Origin: Actinomyces ruminis
GTDB lineage: Bacteria; Actinomycetota; Actinomycetes; Actinomycetales; Actinomycetaceae
Direction of reading: 5' to 3'
DNA length: 64,000 nucleotides
Assembly: GCF_002154335.2 (NCBI RefSeq)
Contig: NZ_MTPX02000042.1
Span: 1-64,000, forward strand
Shown here: piece after piece, positions 2,524-14,061 of the stretch
Position numbering within the stretch: position 1 is the first letter of the stretch
Layout of the letters: each line of letters opens with the position of its first letter
Made by a program: the position numbers and the translations under genes
The notes under the pieces: model-generated
Seen by the model: the letters and a program-made list of their open reading frames with translations, nothing else
Databases searched by the model: none
Told to the model about the DNA's origin: nothing

Positions 2524-3357
2524 ATGGATCACGACGAACGGCTGCTGCGCATCGGACTGTTCTCCAGGCTGGCCGCGATCAGCGTGAGGATGCTGCGCTA
2601 CTACCAGGAACAGCACGTGCTGGAGCCCGCGGCTGTCGACCCGTTCACCGGGCATCGGTCCTACGCTCCCTCTCAGCTCACCGACGCGCACTGGATCACC
2701 CGACTGCGTGACGCGGACATGCCGGTCAGCGAGATCGCCGAGATCATGGCCAACCGTGGTGATCCGCAGCGTGTGCGCGCCATCATGTCCGCCCACGGCG
2801 ACCGCCTCGCCGCCGAGCAGGAACGCCTGGGGCGCGTGAGCGCCGCATTTGAACGGATCAACGCCTACCTCAAGGAGTCGACCATGGACATCAACGTCCG
2901 CCAGATGCACATGCCCGCCATGACGGTAGCGGCTCTGCGCCGCGTGCTGTCGTCCTACAACGACGAGGGCCAGCTGTGGCAGGAGGTCGTGCCGCTGATG
3001 GAGCGCAGCGGTCTGGTGCTGCCCGAGCACGACGAGGGACTGGGTGGAACCACCTACCTCGACCCGGAGTACCGGGACTCCGACGTCGACGTCGAGGTCT
3101 GGATCAGGGTCCCCACGCCCTTCACGCCGGTGGCGCCGCTGGAATGCCGTGAGGTGCCCGCGCGCGACGTCGTGGTTGCAACCCTCCACGGCAGCTACGA
3201 CGGCATGCCCGAGGCCACCGCGGCGATTGGCGGCTACATCGCCGCTCACAACCTGCGCACGGGACCCATGTTCAACATCTACCGGGTCGGCCCGGCGCAC
3301 AACCCGGACCCTTCCACCTGGGTGACGGACGCGTGCTTCCCGATCATTGAGGAGTGA
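2524..3357 (+). CDS. MerR family transcriptional regulator with effector domain
   Basis: A 277-residue protein. Residues 6-75 are a MerR winged helix (L-L-R-I-G-L-F-S-R-L-A-A-I-S-V-R-M-L-R-Y-Y), then a coiled linker. From about residue 125 there is a GyrI-like (BltR/AraC effector) domain with the family-type E-V-W-I-R-V-P and G-P-M-F-N-I-Y. Such proteins sense drugs or small molecules. ATG 2524 gives the standard MerR N-terminus; GTG 2503 and ATG 2509 are in-frame alternatives. It is divergent from the antitoxin fragment. Confidence 0.85.
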   Translation: MDHDERLLRIGLFSRLAAISVRMLRYYQEQHVLEPAAVDPFTGHRSYAPSQLTDAHWITRLRDADMPVSEIAEIMANRGDPQRVRAIMSAHGDRLAAEQERLGRVSAAFERINAYLKESTMDINVRQMHMPAMTVAALRRVLSSYNDEGQLWQEVVPLMERSGLVLPEHDEGLGGTTYLDPEYRDSDVDVEVWIRVPTPFTPVAPLECREVPARDVVVATLHGSYDGMPEATAAIGGYIAAHNLRTGPMFNIYRVGPAHNPDPSTWVTDACFPIIEE

Positions 3358-3466
3358 TCGCGCCTCAAAGCGCAACACCGGCGGTATTGACACCACCCGA
3401 CCGGCGAGGCTCGCACGGGCCCAGGGCAATATATGCGGTCAGGGGTCGCGCCCTAGAATCCCCGTC

Positions 3467-3901
3467 ATGGGAGAGCTGACCTACCTCACCGGCCGCGGCG
3501 CCGTCGCGCCCGACCAGATCGAGGGCATGTTCGTCGGTTGGCCGTCCCCTCCCTCCGCGGCGCAGCTGGTGGCGGTCATGGACGGCAGCTACCGGCGCGT
3601 CTGGGCGCTCGACGGCGACCGCGTCGTCGGCTACATAAACGCCATCAGCGACGGCGTGCTCAACGTCTTCATCCCCTGGCTCGAGGTCCACCCCGACTAT
3701 CAGGGCCGGGGGATCGGCGCGGAGCTGGTGCGCCGACTGCTCGCTCAGCTCGGCGACATGTACGCCGTCGACCTGTGCTGCGATCCGGAAATGCTGCCGT
3801 ACTACGAAAGGCTCGGCTTTGCCCGCCTGGCCGGCGCGGGTCTGCGCAACCCCGGTGCGCTCACGGGTGAGAACACGCCGCAGACGCTCTCGGATCTCTG
3901 A
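3467..3901 (+). CDS. GNAT family N-acetyltransferase
   Basis: A protein of 144 residues with the acetyl-CoA binding motif A at W-L-E-V-H-P-D-Y-Q-G-R-G-I-G-A-E-L-V (R/Q-x-x-G-x-G/A) and the following P-Y-Y-E-R-L-G-F segment typical of GNAT enzymes. The substrate cannot be read from the sequence. ATG 3467 begins M-G-E-L-T-Y. It is a single gene facing the convergent arfB. Confidence 0.85.
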   Translation: MGELTYLTGRGAVAPDQIEGMFVGWPSPPSAAQLVAVMDGSYRRVWALDGDRVVGYINAISDGVLNVFIPWLEVHPDYQGRGIGAELVRRLLAQLGDMYAVDLCCDPEMLPYYERLGFARLAGAGLRNPGALTGENTPQTLSDL

Positions 3902-3945
3902 GACCGCTCGGCCGTACCCCTGCCGCCCGGCAAGCGCCTGTGCCG

Positions 3946-4386
3946 CTACTCGGCGGGCGGTCGGCGCCGTAGGGTCTTGACCTCCGCCCGTCGTCGTTTG
4001 GCTGCCAGGCGACGACGCTGGGAGCCACGGGTGGGCTTGGTGGCCCGGCGCGCCACCGGCGATGCCAGCGCGCCCCGCAGCAACCCCGCCAGGCGCTCCC
4101 GCGCCGCCATCCGATTGCGGTACTGAGAACGGTGCTCGGCGGCGGTAACCGTGAGCACGGTCCCGGTCAGACGCTCATTCAGGTTCTGCAGGGCCCGCCG
4201 CCGCTGCCGCGCGTCGAGTGCCGTCGTCGTCGCCAGGTCCAGGCTCAGTTGTACGCAGGAGTCGGCGGTGTTGACGCCCTGGCCGCCGGGTCCGGAAGCA
4301 TGCGTGAACTGTTCGCTCAGCTCCGCCGCCGGCACCGTCAGCCCCCGCGGACAGCCCGGGCCGGGCGGGATCGACAGGTCCTTCAT
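3946..4386 (-). CDS. arfB: Peptidyl-tRNA hydrolase ArfB (RF-1 domain)
   Basis: A 146-residue protein with one RF-1-like domain. The catalytic GGQ motif lies in H-A-S-G-P-G-G-Q-G-V-N-T, and a long Arg/Lys-rich tail (residues about 115-146) would insert in the ribosome mRNA channel. ArfB releases peptides from stalled ribosomes without a stop codon. The start at 4386 gives M-K-D-L-S-I-P-P, as usual for the family. It is divergent from the next gene, with 33 bp between the starts. Confidence 0.88.
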   Translation of the reverse strand: MKDLSIPPGPGCPRGLTVPAAELSEQFTHASGPGGQGVNTADSCVQLSLDLATTTALDARQRRRALQNLNERLTGTVLTVTAAEHRSQYRNRMAARERLAGLLRGALASPVARRATKPTRGSQRRRLAAKRRRAEVKTLRRRPPAE

Positions 4387-4419: not shown

Positions 4420-5435
4420 ATGTCGCCGGCTCCGCAGACCCCGCTCGTGTTCACCGCCGCCGGGCGGCACGCACTGGGCCTGGTGGCCCGCGAGGCCCGC
4501 GCCGACGGCGTCCGTGAGATCCTCGCGCCCCGCGTGCGCTGCACCGCCATGGCCGTCCCCTTCGAACTCGAGGGCCTGCACGTCACCGACGTCGACTGTG
4601 GCCCGGCCGGCCTGCTCGAACCCGGTGCGCTCGCCGCCGCGCTCGCGGCCTGCAACCGTCCGCCGCTGATCCTGCACGCCGAGCCTTCGGCAACCGGGCC
4701 GACGGTGAACTCCGCGCCGCTCTGGCCGCCGCCCGCCGCACCGGGGCGCGCGTCGTCGCCGACGTCACCCACACTGCGCTGTCGCGTGCCGGGGAGCTGC
4801 TTAACGACGCCAGCCCCGCAGACCGCCCCGACGCCGACTACCTAGTCGCCAGCCTGCGCAAGCTGCTGCCTATTCCACTCGGCGGCGTGGTCTGCGGGCT
4901 GGCCCGCTCGCCCGAGCTCTCCCAGGACCCCGTGAACGCGGATCTGGCCGCCGTCGCCGAGATCGCCGAACGCCGCCCCGAGGCGCCCGCGCTCAAGGAC
5001 GCCGTCGAGGACCTACTCGACGTCGCCTGGGCCCCCGCACCCATGCCCGGCGCGATCCGCACTCGACTTGCCGCGCCGGAACTCGACGTCGAACTCTCCC
5101 GCCGCCGTGCGTGCCTGGCGCACCTGCACGACGCCGTCGCCGACCTGTACGTCATCAACCCCGGTGCCGCCTATCCGCCGGTGATAGCCCACCCCCGGGC
5201 CGCCGCCATTCGCGCGGCGCTGGCCCGCGCCGGGTACGCCCTGCCCCTGCACTGGACCGGCGCCACCGACGGCCTCGTGGCCCTGCCCGACGATCCGCGG
5301 GCGATAGGCATCGTGCGCCGCGCGGCGGAAGCATCGGCGTTGCGTGAGGCGCTTGCGGAAGGCGAGGCGAGTGGGCCTGCTGAGCCCTTCGACTTTGATG
5401 CCTTCATTGCCTCCAAAACCTCAAAGACGGCATGA
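4420..5435 (+). CDS. PLP-dependent aminotransferase-fold protein (frameshifted)
   Basis: About 338 residues when repaired. Fold-type I PLP enzyme signatures are present: A-D-V-T-H-T-A (aspartate that contacts the cofactor ring) and A-S-L-R-K-L-L-P-I-P, whose lysine would hold PLP, as in DegT/DnrJ-like sugar aminotransferases. One base is missing near 4682 (after GCCGAG), splitting the frame; the second part continues to 5435. Substrate unknown. No sugar-biosynthesis neighbours are visible. Confidence 0.65.
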
Positions 5436-9167: not shown

Positions 9168-10043
9168 GTGCACGACGCCTGGAATCCCTGGCACGGCTGC
9201 CGTCGCGTCTCCGAGGGTTGTGACCACTGCTTCATGATGTTCCGGGACGCCTCCTGGGGCGTGGACGGCGAGGTTATTCGCCGCGTCGGCCCCGCCGGCT
9301 TCCGCTACCCGCTCGCCGTGGACCGCACCGGCGCCTACAAGGTCCGTGCCGGGGAGATGCTGCGTGTATGTATGACCAGCGACTTCTTCCTGCGCCAGGC
9401 CGACCCCTGGCGTGAGGAGGCCTGGGACATCATTCGCGCCCGGCCGGATGTGAAGTTCTTCCTGCTGACCAAACGCCCCCACCGCGTCGCCCGCTGCCTG
9501 CCCGAGGACTGGGGTGATGGCTGGGACAACGTCATGCTCTCGGTGTCCGTCGAGAACCAGCGCCGTACCGATCAGCGCCTGCCCGTGCTGCTCGACCTGC
9601 CCTTCGTTCACAAGGGTGCCATGGCCGCGCCCCTGATCGGTCCCATCGAGTTGTCCCGCTACCTCGCCGACGGACAGATCGAGCAGCTGATCGTGGGCGG
9701 GGAGAACTACGGCGGTGCTCGGCCACTCGACGTCGACTGGGTTCGCTCCCTGCGGGCACAGTGTCAGCAGGCGGACGTGTCCATGACCTTCATCGAGACC
9801 GGCTCCACGCTGATCAAGGACGGACGCACCTATTCGATGGGTTCCAAGCGCAACCAGTCCGTGCAGGCGCACCGTTCCGGCCTGTCCTACGCCGCGCGTA
9901 GCCGCCGCCCCTGGCAGCTGCGCGCCCCGCTCGGCTGGGAGATCCCCGCCGCCGAGCTGCACGTCCCCAGGTTCGACGGCAACTGCTTGGAGTGCGGTTC
10001 CCGTCCCATCTGCAACGGCCTGTATCGGGGACGCTGTGCCTGA
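9168..10043 (+). CDS. DUF5131 (Gp37/Gp68-like) three-Cys protein
   Basis: 291 residues starting at GTG 9168 behind a strong AGGAGAGGAGG ribosome site. The N-terminus W-N-P-W-H-G-C-R-R-V-S-E-G-C-D-H-C carries the three clustered cysteines (11, 18, 21) of this phage- and defence-associated family. More cysteines sit near the end (C-L-E-C...C-N-G...R-C). Family members often pair with a three-Cys-motif partner TcmP; no TcmP gene is seen here. The biochemical role is unresolved. Confidence 0.75.
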   Translation: MHDAWNPWHGCRRVSEGCDHCFMMFRDASWGVDGEVIRRVGPAGFRYPLAVDRTGAYKVRAGEMLRVCMTSDFFLRQADPWREEAWDIIRARPDVKFFLLTKRPHRVARCLPEDWGDGWDNVMLSVSVENQRRTDQRLPVLLDLPFVHKGAMAAPLIGPIELSRYLADGQIEQLIVGGENYGGARPLDVDWVRSLRAQCQQADVSMTFIETGSTLIKDGRTYSMGSKRNQSVQAHRSGLSYAARSRRPWQLRAPLGWEIPAAELHVPRFDGNCLECGSRPICNGLYRGRCA

Positions 10044-10149: not shown

Positions 10150-10427
10150 ATGATGACGCTTCCCTGGTCCGCAGGCCGCTGGCTGAACCCGCCCGCCGCC
10201 GTCGAGGACAGGGGTGGGGACCTGCTGGTCACCGCTGTGGAGGAATTCGACGCGTGGCGGCGCGTCAGCTACGGGTTCATCGCCGACACCGCTCACGCCT
10301 TGCTGGCCCCCTTGGAGCAGAACACTGCGGTCGAGGTGGACATGGTCGCGGCCTTCACCGCGGACTTCGATCAGCCCGCCATCATGGTGCGCATCGACGC
10401 CGAGAACTGGAGCAAGGCGGGTATAGG
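10150..10427 (+). pseudogene. DUF1349-family remnant, cut by MITE-like element 2
   Basis: The first 93 residues (W-L-N-P-P-A-A-V, D-A-W-R-R-V-S-Y-G-F-I-A-D, Q-P-A-I-M-V-R-I-D-A-E-N-W-S-K-A-G-I) match the N-terminal half of DUF1349 proteins. These are about 190-residue concanavalin-like folds. At 10428 a GGCTCTTCGCGTTTG repeat end begins and the frame continues only as repeat translation to 10539. The gene is therefore truncated by the element. The missing half is not recognisable on the far side. Confidence 0.7.
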
Positions 10428-11280: not shown

Positions 11281-11320
11281 GGGTGGTTGACTGGGTATCG
11301 GGTGGGCGTTAAAGTCCGGT

Positions 11321-11450
11321 TGTTCGAGCGGGCCGGAGATGGTCGGTTATCGGACCGGCAGGTTCGGGGTTCGAATCCCCGTCGGCACTTCGTCGGTAGC
11401 TCAAGGATAGAGCGGCCGGCTCCGGTCATCGCGCCACGCCCGTTCGGACG
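11321..11450 (+). ncRNA. Y-RNA-like RNA A with permuted tRNA-like domain (YrlA type)
   Basis: The ends form a continuous 13-bp helix (11321-11333 with 11438-11450, three G-U pairs). Inside is the box CGGTTATCG (11344-11352), then a 6-bp stem GACCGG/CCGGTC (11353-11358 with 11422-11427). That stem encloses a canonical T arm CGGGGTTCGAATCCCCG (11365-11381) followed by a D arm GCTC-AAGGATA-GAGC (11399-11413). T arm before D arm is the reverse of tRNA order. It fits bacterial YrlA Y RNAs, which carry a tRNA-like module and a Ro60-binding stem. The Ro60 gene lies 700 bp downstream. Confidence 0.65.
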
Positions 11451-11614
11451 CCTGTCTCTATTCACGCCTGTCCTTGCGCGCACGCGCCCGGGGCTTATGG
11501 CGCGTGACGGCTTGTGAGCGCGCTACCCAGGTGCGCGTAAGGCGTTTTTCTGCATGCTCAGTGGCGGACCCGTGTGCTAGTTCACCGTGGGCTGCGTGGC
11601 GGTTGGCGCAGGCG

Positions 11615-11725
11615 GCGTCAGGAACACGAGTTTGCGTCAGGAACACGAGCTTTGGAGGTTTACACGTGCTTGGCGCATGCAAAGCTCTAGAACTCGTGTC
11701 TTTGAGAGCAACTCGTGTGCGAGAT
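11615..11725. repeat. Word array (CACGAG / CTCGTG), 19-nt period
   Basis: Two direct copies of GCGTCAGGAACACGAG start at 11615 and 11634. Two copies in the opposite orientation, AACTCGTGTnnnnGAG, start at 11691 and 11710. Both pairs are spaced exactly 19 nt. Between the halves lies a smaller palindromic region around GCATGC. It sits between Y-RNA-like candidates A and B and contains no gene. Confidence 0.6.
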
Positions 11726-11858
11726 GCGGGTCGAAGTCGGGGGCTCTGCGGTGGTCCGCGCTGTCCTGCAGTAGTGTGTCACCTCACAAGATCTGTAATG
11801 GAGGTGGGTTGAGCTCCGGTTGTGTAGGGGTCTACACTCCTGCGGGTCGGCCGTGGTC

Positions 11859-11985
11859 GACATACGCGAACGGCGTGCCGGCGGGCCGGAAGGTCTTCGG
11901 TTATCGGAATTAGTTGGTTCGACCCCAGCCCTCCTCGGAGGATCCGGAGGCCGAACACATGCCCCGCATCGCCGTTCACGTAGTC
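11859..11985 (+). ncRNA. Y-RNA-like RNA B
   Basis: 5' GACATACGCGAACGGCG (11859-11875) pairs with 3' CGCCGTTCACGTAGTC (11970-11985), giving a basal helix with one bulge. The 5' interior repeats the box of candidate A: GCGGGCCGGAAGGTCTTC followed by CGGTTATCG. A T-loop-like GGTTCGACCCC follows. Overall length (127 nt) matches candidate A. The box resembles the Ro-binding strand of animal Y RNAs (CCGAAGGU...GUUAUC), as far as I can recall it. Confidence 0.5.
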
Positions 11986-12015
11986 ATAAGGCGGGCGCGC
12001 TCCTGCGCCCGCCCG

Positions 12016-12109
12016 GGGTGGCGGCGGGCCGAAGCCGGTCGGTTATCGCTCTCGAACAGCGCGGTTGACACCGCTTGTCCGGCGGGCAAGAACACGTCCG
12101 CCGCCACCC
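12016..12109 (+). ncRNA. Y-RNA-like RNA C
   Basis: GGGTGGCGGCGG (12016-12027) pairs perfectly with CCGCCGCCACCC (12098-12109). The interior again has GCGGGCCGAAG then CGGTTATCG. Two small hairpins follow: GCGGT-TGAC-ACCGC, and CTTGTCC-GGC-GGGCAAG with one G-U pair. Shorter than A and B. It ends 45 bp before the Ro60 start codon, so it could alternatively be the structured 5' leader of that mRNA. Confidence 0.45.
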
Positions 12110-12154
12110 AGGTGCACATCCGTCGCCGGAAACAGGAAAGGAAGGGAAGAAGAA

Positions 12155-13776
12155 ATGGACATCTTGAAAGGCATCAGCATCAGGCGCACGCCGCAGAGCC
12201 GCCCGGCCACCACCGGCCAGGTACGCAACTCCGCCGGCGGCTACGCCTTCGCGCTCGACGACGCCGCCCGTTTGCGCCGCTTCCTGATCCTGGGTGTGGA
12301 CGGCGGCACCTACTACACCGATGCGCAAACGCTGGCACTCGAGAACACCGAGGTCCTGCGCCGGCTGGCCGCAGACGACCCGCAGGGCCTGGTGACCACG
12401 ATCACCGAGGTCTCCCTATCCGGTGCTGCTCCTAAGCAGAACCCGGCCCTGTTCGCCCTGGCCTATGCGACCTCTGTGCCCGAGGCCCGCGACGCCGCAC
12501 TGGCCGCGTTGCCCAAGGTGGCCCGCACCGGAACGCACCTGTTCACCTTCGCGACCTACGTGGAGCAGTTCCGCGGCTGGGGGCGTGGCCTGCGCCGCGC
12601 CGTCGGCTCCTGGTACACCGCCCGCGACGCCGATGCTCTGGCCTACCAGGCGGTCAAGTATCGCCAGCGCGACGGCTGGACGCACCGCGACCTGCTGCGC
12701 CTGGCGCACCCGAAGGTCGACGATCCCGCACTGCGCGCCACCCTCGACTGGATCGCCCACGGCACCGTAGGCGAGGAGACCCCCACCCTCATAGAGGGCT
12801 TCGTCAAGGCCCGGGAGGCGGACGCCACCCGGACCGACGCCGCCGCCACCTGGGCGCGGATCGTGTGCGACTACCACCTGACCTGGGAGATGCTGCCGGA
12901 TGCGGCACTGACCCGGCCCGAGGTCTGGGAGGCGCTGCTCGACGTCGGCGTGCCGCTGACTGCGCTCATGCGGCAGCTGCCGCGTCTGACCCGGCTGGGT
13001 CTGCTGCCCGCCATGGGTGGTCGCACCGATGAGATCGCGGGGCAGCTGACCGACGCCGCCCGCCTGCGCGCCGCCCGCGTGCACCCGGTGAGCCTGTTGG
13101 TCGCCCAGCGCACCTATGCCTCCGGGTTCTCCCGTCGCGGCAAGGCCTCCTGGACGTCGACGACGAAGGTCGCCGACGCCCTGGACGCCGCCTTCTACGC
13201 GCCTTCGGCGCCGTCGAGCCCGCAGGCAAGCGCACCATGCTCGCCGTGGACGTCTCCGGCTCCATGGGCATGCCCATCTCCGGCATGGCCCTGACCGCCC
13301 GCGAGGCGGCGGCCGCCCTGGCGCTGGTGCAGTTGGCCACCGAGCCGGGCTCCGCCGCCTTCGCCTTCACCAGTGCTCGTCCGGGATACTGGCAGCCGGC
13401 TGCCATGGCGCCGCTGGACATCAGCCCCCGGCGTCGTCTGGACGACGCGCTGAAGGCGGTGGACGCGATGCCCTTCGGCGGCACGGACTGCGCACTGCCC
13501 ATGCTGTATGCGACCGAGCACGACCTGGAAGTGGACACCTTCGTCATCTACACCGACAACGAGACCTGGGCCGGTGACATCCACCCGTTCCAGGCGCTGC
13601 GCCGCTACCGCGAGCACAGCGGCATCTCCGCCCGCCTCGTCGTGGAGGGAATGACCTCCACGGGCTTCACCATCGCCGACCCGGACGACGCGGGCATGCT
13701 CGACGTCGTCGGCTTCGACACCGCGGTGCCGAGCCTGGTCACGGAGTTCTCGCGGGGGCTCTCAAATGGGCTCTGA
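12155..13776 (+). CDS. rsr: Ro60/Rsr RNA-binding protein, TROVE plus vWA domain (frameshifted)
   Basis: About 540 residues. A HEAT-like TROVE ring occupies residues 1-345. It is followed by a von Willebrand A domain with the MIDAS motif D-V-S-G-S-M-G and later F-G-G-T-D-C and I-Y-T-D-N-E-T-W. Ro60 binds misfolded RNAs and Y RNAs and in bacteria tunes RNA decay under stress. One base is missing near 13198 (expected A-A-F-G-A-V-E), joining the two frames. ATG 12155 follows a purine-rich AGGAAAGGAAGGG site. Three Y-RNA-like candidates lie upstream. The gene ends at a strong hairpin. Confidence 0.88.
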
Positions 13777-13837: not shown

Positions 13838-13851
13838 TGCGCTCAACGGGC

Positions 13852-14061
13852 GTGTCCGACCCGCTGGCGGCCAGGGCCGCCGAGTTGCATGCCCAGGCCC
13901 TCGAGGCCGATGCCCTGGCCGCTCGCTACCGGGCCGAGCGCGACGAACTCATCGATCGGCTCCGTGCGGCCGAGCCGAAGCGTTGGTCCTACACTGCGCT
14001 CGCCCAGGCGCTCGGCTGCAGTCGGGAACTGATCGCTCAGATCGTGCGTCGACGGCGCTGA
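13852..14061 (+). CDS. Small helix-turn-helix protein
   Basis: 69 residues from GTG 13852 (a GTG at 13837 is also in frame). An Ala/Glu-rich amphipathic helix, probably coiled coil, covers residues 5-45. A helix-turn-helix follows, Y-T-A-L-A-Q-A-L-G-C-S-R-E-L-I-A-Q-I-V, with a basic end. No ribosome site is obvious. It may regulate its neighbours, but nothing in the sequence shows a target. Hypothetical, with plausible coding character. Confidence 0.55.
   Translation: MSDPLAARAAELHAQALEADALAARYRAERDELIDRLRAAEPKRWSYTALAQALGCSRELIAQIVRRRR

Follow-up and report, generated by a model that had tools for sequence, protein, structure and literature searches.

YrlA (Rfam family RF02553), described from Deinococcus and Salmonella, adjoins the Ro60/Rsr gene and has a basal stem that closes its ends. 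A 2014 study (Chen, RNA) reportedly found, according to its abstract, at least one Y RNA with a tRNA-like domain per species, which implies that several Y RNAs per species were already known. The same is true of single operons: in Salmonella, two Y RNAs are described downstream of rsr, beside rtcBA, in the sigma-54-controlled operon rsr-yrlB-yrlA-rtcBA (PMC7790460, PMC9879122). In Deinococcus radiodurans, Ro60 is described as being tethered to PNPase by its Y RNA, a role that a review attributes to the tRNA-like part (PMC8394870, PMC4726728). Outside bacteria, stem-bulge RNAs (sbRNAs) are held to be homologous to vertebrate Y RNAs and are described as having a bulged C in the lower stem and a loop whose 5′ end reads UUAUC (PMC4450293, PMC4726728). 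The latter source holds that bacterial Y RNAs share no homology with the vertebrate clades (PMC4726728).

Here we describe three elements, designated A, B and C, that lie directly in front of a Ro60 gene in a 64,000-nucleotide stretch of the Actinomyces ruminis genome (contig NZ_MTPX02000042.1; hereafter the window). They are very probably the Y RNAs of the adjoining Ro60, with one docking module, different heads and, in most relatives, probably a single processed precursor. The locus resembles the Salmonella operon in having more than one candidate Y RNA with Ro60, but here there are three (up to four in relatives) instead of two, and they are placed upstream of Ro60 and not downstream of it. 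Neither rtcA nor rtcB was identified among the seven window ORFs that were scanned (two Ro60 pieces and five neighbours).

Elements upstream of the Ro60 gene

All three elements are located on the forward strand. Element A (11322..11449) combines a module common to the three, referred to below as the Ro module, with a tRNA-like head composed of a T-arm (11365-11381) and a D-arm (11397-11413). Element B (11875..11972) contains the Ro module, a T-arm only (11913-11929) and a short hairpin, while element C (12018..12107; outer stem 12013-12111) comprises the Ro module and has neither arm by the rules used. The 3′ end of element C lies 47 nt upstream of the Ro60 start codon. Elements A, B and C score 106.5, 69.4 and 80 bits with covariance models R3, R2 and R1, respectively, the window sequence itself being part of each model.

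The first-pass annotation had marked three segments upstream of the TROVE gene, and they are present at the places it gave. Its further claim that a basal helix closes the ends of every segment applies without reservation to A and C, in which 8 of 8 end-flank positions pair. In element B only 4 of 8 do so in the simple register, and the fold shows a longer outer stem, GAACGGCG/CGCCGUUC, within 11859-11986, set off by an internal loop. The box said to be shared by the segments (GGGCCG-N9/10-GGTTATC, at 11330, 11883 and 12026) matches the annotated form exactly in A and C and approximately in B, because the spacing in B is one base longer and B reads CCGGAA where the annotation had "CCGRAG". A loose regular expression applied to both strands of the 64 kb window detected no further copy of the box.

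Fold z-scores ranged from -2.1 to -3.9 across four folded stretches, the lowest value being that of element B. The named structure of class B was picked by hand; the single-strand minimum free energy (MFE) fold of element B and the RNAalifold structure of A2 choose other pairings, and the hand-picked structure fits better.

Two features are located in the linkers. Between elements B and C there is a GC hairpin of 9 bp without a T-run (11990..12013, forward strand), which may be a processing site, a terminator or neither; the scanner reported no terminator-like site there. A similar hairpin is present in the corresponding linker of locus L004, and the linker of L003 folds in another way. Between elements A and B (11615-11719), GCGTCAGGAACACGAG occurs twice, together with two inverted partial copies. 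A sub-threshold Rfam microRNA match overlapping these repeats was taken as chance.

Pairing and covariation in the Ro module

The Ro module consists of a basal helix, a G-C/Y internal loop, a CG:CG clamp, a second internal loop, an upper helix ending in GG:CC, and an unpaired UUAUC. RNAalifold recovered this module unaided in classes A and C (the classes are defined below), and in class B its consensus contained the basal helix and the T-stem and lacked the upper helix. When the 8-nt flanks were tested in 148 of the 176 elements, with the 3′ register set by the motif CAYG, independently of pairing, 74.7% of the positions paired, versus 51.4% with permuted partners (sd 1.2, maximum 55.9, 1000 permutations).

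Alignment with homologous loci, which the first-pass annotation had proposed as a check, revealed strongly covarying helices in all three classes. The alignments retained 35 of 58 class A candidates, 24 of 28 class B candidates and 25 of 37 class C candidates. Under the named structure 96.2% (A), 88.0% (B) and 95.4% (C) of the cells are paired, and 15 of 28, 17 of 25 (T-stem included) and 11 of 19 pairs, respectively, are changed on both sides. The covariation score was reached by 0 of 500 shuffles in each class. The figures for the basal helix are flattered, since the 3′ ends were chosen partly by pairing; the upper helix, which was not used for this choice, covaries as well.

At the start of the loop, UUAUC is found in 96 of 190 elements (0.3% in shuffles), and 66 others, 45 of them belonging to class A, have UUACC in the same place. 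The module resembles one that binds Ro60; Ro60 binding, processing and function of the elements are predicted.

Three types of head

On the basis of motif rules, the elements of the related loci and of the window were divided into three classes. Class A (n = 78, median 137.5 nt) has both a T-arm and a D-arm. Class B (n = 54, median 111.5 nt) has a T-arm with an almost invariant T-loop and a covarying stem, but no D-arm motif, and class C (n = 51, median 97 nt) has neither arm by the rules used. Seven further elements have the D-arm motif only. The three copies in the window thus form a graded series (T-arm and D-arm, T-arm only, none), which the first-pass annotation had missed.

The elbow of a tRNA needs GG in the D-loop. 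This dinucleotide is present in all 71 class A elements whose D-arm motif is exact (class A comprises 78). Element B has no D-loop, and a canonical elbow is therefore impossible in it.

The motif ACAA(C/G/T)T occurs at most 25 nt downstream of 14 of 67 non-last class A elements and 3 of 4 non-last elements with the D-arm only (e.g. in L024 and L043). It follows 0 of 25 non-last class B elements and has a background frequency of 0.4%. A processing signal after class A elements is a possible explanation.

Distribution and order of the elements

A search of contigs with the Ro60 protein yielded 78 loci, mostly from Actinobacteria, with a few from planctomycete, Eremiobacterota and proteobacterial bins. 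Over 84 loci, 176 copies of the box fall in the 89.5 kb just upstream of Ro60 and 7 in 1.63 Mb elsewhere, three of these seven being in a single locus, L082. With covariance model R2 (the training loci of R1-R3 overlap with those searched), 187 elements were identified in 80 loci at E ≤0.001, which makes 190 with the three of the window. All 190 are placed on the Ro60 strand, at most 1.1 kb upstream of Ro60. Among the 78 loci that have at least 900 nt of upstream sequence (which leaves out L025, L046 and L062) and do not include the near copies L019, L020 and L094, at least two elements are present in 64, at least three in 29, one in 12 and none in two (L077 and L082). Several copies per locus, which the first-pass annotation had expected to be uncommon, are the rule in these loci.

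In locus L082, from a deltaproteobacterial bin, a Ro60-like gene (3203-4243) lies among 18 tRNA matches (L082:2507-8438), and Ro-box-like sequences occur at 4953, 6552 and 6676; model R2 detected no element in this locus.

The order of the classes within the arrays is strongly biased. In the 65 arrays, an element of class A stands first in 51, not first in 14 and last in six. Pairs of unlike elements are distributed accordingly: AB 57 against BA 6, AC 42 against CA 7, and BC 16 against CB 6. With the seven D-arm-only elements treated as class C, the order statistic is 96 versus a null of 0 ± 13.6 and was reached by 0 of 5000 within-locus shuffles; this and the other counts and P values are not independent, because the loci are related and were collected by Ro60 similarity.

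The recurrence of the order A-B-C across many genera, unexpected from decay alone, speaks against the idea that only element A works as a Y RNA and that B and C are its decaying duplicates. The common module with progressively smaller heads would suit such an origin, and tandem duplication could have built the array. Within element C, a 4-bp stem (12047-12061) carries the loop CTCGAAC, one base away from a T-loop (CTCCAAC in L003), and this hairpin may be a T-arm relic or a product of chance. Yet the T-loop of class B is almost invariant and its stem covaries, as does the upper helix of class C, and we regard decay as quite improbable compared with the view that all three are Y RNAs.

Within the genus, TROVE was found in 9 of 49 genomes, the window's own included; model R1 detected elements in all nine and in none of the other 40 (Fisher 5e-10). 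A further R1 match (E 0.005) is situated at a contig end in G117, a genome without TROVE. At the level of the class, R3 matches were obtained in 58 of 296 genomes, one of them being the window's own. Thirty-four of these 58 were checked for TROVE and 32 have it. The two R3-positive genomes without TROVE are G220 and G108, the former having a Ro60-type vWA match near its elements. Among the 23 R3-positive genomes outside the TROVE-checked set and the window's own, G178, G219 and G324 have weak full-length matches and most have partial matches only (e.g. model positions 19-116 or 32-109); these partial matches may represent the T-arm and D-arm of neighbouring or tandem tRNAs. Chance or artefact as the source of the elements was rejected on the basis of the window-wide scan for the box, the pairing permutation and the co-occurrence within the genus.

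The T-arm and D-arm sequences of element A, with a weak tRNA match of 16.5 bits (gathering score 29), could point to tRNA relics or to a tRNA-sensing (T-box-like) leader unrelated to Ro60 binding. Against this stand the tracking of TROVE by the elements within the genus and the lack of a clear tRNA part in C. ARAGORN detected no tRNA (no cloverleaf) in the window, and no T-box was found at the Rfam gathering score in the window or in 20 loci; tRNA genes and a T-box were rejected on these grounds, and we consider an origin of this kind extremely improbable.

Arachnia propionica and Actinomyces dentalis, both oral commensals, also have elements next to Ro60. Ro60 proteins of commensals are described as linked to lupus autoimmunity (PMC6801612).

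Promoter-like sequences and the probable Ro60 leader

A sigma-70-like promoter, TTGACT-17-TAAAGT, precedes element A (11287..11315, forward strand; one found by the scanner, shuffle mean 0.2). Transcription starting 7 nt past it would begin at 11322, where the basal helix starts. A possible -10 hexamer for element B, TACACT (11833..11838, forward strand), was recognized by eye together with TTGAGC (11809-11814) and is not reported by the promoter scanner, which also found no promoter for element C.

In the related loci, a TANNNT hexamer ending within 30 nt upstream was found for 55 of 76 first elements, versus a control mean of 3.75. For later elements, the counts are 7 of 22 (control 1.25) in class A, 5 of 48 (8.75) in class B and 4 of 42 (5.25) in class C; these counts omit elements less than 260 nt from the locus start, and the control stretches can contain elements or promoters. 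Neighbouring elements are separated by a median of 14 nt, and 81 of 112 gaps do not exceed 25 nt. From the last element to the start codon, whose position in the relatives was inferred from the protein match, the median distance is 43.5 nt; it is 20-60 nt in 61 of the 78 loci that contain elements. Since hexamers mainly precede the first element, linkers are short and the last element is near the start codon, the array in most relatives is probably one precursor in the Ro60 leader, transcribed with Ro60. The probable location of the last element within this leader had been missed by the first-pass annotation.

This arrangement admits another role for the last element (C in the window): it could act mainly in cis, with Ro60 binding the module of its own mRNA and repressing translation, so that no free RNA is formed. 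The scarcity of promoter-like hexamers before later elements of classes B and C is consistent with such a role, as is the distance to the start codon, which provides about the space of a ribosome-binding site. On the other hand, the module and its 3′ strand are kept about as well in the last element as in those upstream, and every element has a basal helix of its own to close it, a feature expected of a free RNA. Release of a free Y RNA from the leader by cleavage would also account for the layout. As the main function, cis regulation seems rather unlikely to us, and a leader role of the last element is a live rival of, or addition to, its function as a free Y RNA.

Comparison with known RNAs

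In a covariance search of Rfam, likewise proposed in the first-pass annotation, nothing was found in the window at the gathering score, and none of the elements was recovered in 20 loci. At a lax threshold, element A was the only one to match YrlA, with 36.2 bits (gathering score 69). Element B, searched by itself, matched no family up to E 10. The best YrlA score in the loci tested, 51.4 bits (L078), is also below the gathering score. Because the elements fall under the Rfam cut-off where tested, they are probably unannotated in many actinobacteria.

The elements share with YrlA their position next to Ro60 and the basal stem that closes their ends, and class A also has the tRNA-like T- and D-arm. 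Unlike YrlA, their Ro module contains GGGCCG..GGUUAUC, which is absent from the printed Rfam consensus; moreover, B lacks part and C all of the tRNA head, and neither matched YrlA. Elements B and C are thus not YrlA in the strict sense, and what they have in common with it is the Ro60 side. The Y RNA interpretation offered by the first-pass annotation is supported by the YrlA match of A, the covarying module, the co-occurrence with TROVE and the position directly before Ro60.

The best match of element C among 4227 Rfam families was the nematode sbRNA family RF01656 (22.5 bits, E 0.0066). The same family matched in four of six other loci (L004 and L078 remained unmatched), in full register on the elements (three class A, one class C), with 24.8-30.6 bits and E 0.0094-0.31, below the cut-off of 38. 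Judged by coverage alone, four such placements would arise by chance with a probability of about 6e-6 under independence, an assumption that homologous elements violate. YrlA outscores RF01656 on those class A elements (34.3-36.0 bits). The vertebrate Y_RNA family (RF00019) was not listed among the lax Rfam matches for the window and the loci tested.

Like nematode sbRNAs and vertebrate Y RNAs, the elements have a basal helix, a C bulge in its 5′ strand, an upper stem and UUAUC at the loop start. They differ in that their C sits in a 2x1 loop (RNAalifold consensus), whereas the sbRNA/metazoan form is a pure bulge, in their bacterial origin, and in the tRNA-like heads of A and B. The likeness could reflect common descent or a shared constraint imposed by Ro60. 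It bears on the stated view that bacterial and vertebrate Y RNAs are not homologous (PMC4726728).

Proposed function of the array

We propose that each element would offer Ro60 one common docking module together with a head of its own. Element A should tie Ro60 to PNPase, because the D. radiodurans Y RNA does so via its tRNA-like part; it would act like YrlA/RYPER, tethering Ro60 to PNPase and gating entry. Elements B and C would dock on Ro60 with a different effector or none, and the outcome would be Ro60 particles of different specificity. Transcription in most relatives is predicted to start at the promoter before the first element, the elements being co-transcribed in the Ro60 leader and then cut out. 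In the window, A and perhaps B would be transcribed from their own promoters, with C located within the Ro60 leader. One docking module with three effectors is the likeliest reading. The presence of similar sets of elements in related bacteria, largely in the same order, suggests that Ro60 has several RNA partners and not a single one.

In the literature searched, with the main primary papers outside its scope, we found no A-B-C arrays, T-arm-only class, promoter pattern or sbRNA-like module. To our knowledge, the purpose of several Y RNAs per Ro60 in animals is an open question. The arrays provide a natural series for asking why Ro60 has several Y RNAs; as the docking module is constant and the heads are of three kinds, each RNA can be deleted or swapped. 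A broader reading, which we advance tentatively and find somewhat more doubtful than convincing, is that a fixed, ordered actinobacterial Ro60-RNA cassette, comprising a full, a half and a non-mimic of tRNA and made as one precursor with Ro60, sorts the ring into several particles and that its docking module is that of the animal Y RNA, down to UUAUC. If this were true, bacterial and animal Y RNAs would be one family, and UUAUC would originally have been tied to Ro60 and not to animal DNA replication.

The Ro60 gene and its surroundings

The Ro60/Rsr gene of the window (12155..13776, forward strand) has its TROVE domain in one frame (from 12155) and the vWA_Ro60 domain in another (149 and 208 bits with Pfam, respectively). 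The two pieces score 270 and 212 bits with the NCBIfam Rsr model, both under the cut-off of 900, and the TROVE-frame piece matches 2nvo and 1yvp. Comparison with the intact relatives L019 and L020 places the frame switch at about 13201; the other eight TROVE-bearing members of the genus have open Ro60 frames of 548-693 aa. The neighbouring SWIM/SNF2 gene shows three frame switches relative to L020 (at 14796, about 17400 and 17656). This clustering of switches in the Ro60 and SWIM/SNF2 genes suggests assembly errors, and sequencing or assembly indels would be the simplest cause. Completeness of the genome is rated at 82.6% and contamination at 4.1%.

Directly 3′ of Ro60, a small ORF (13840-14058) appears helix-turn-helix-like by eye. 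It gave no Pfam or NCBIfam match above the cut-off, and tblastn found it in 28 of 78 related loci, behind Ro60 among the matches listed. On the other side of the array, a DUF5131 gene (9168-10043) is followed by a DUF1349 ORF (10150-10425), and the likeness to L020 ends at 10425. Both ORFs were matched by tblastn in 2 of the 78 loci, L019 and L020, where the flank is at most 5 kb.
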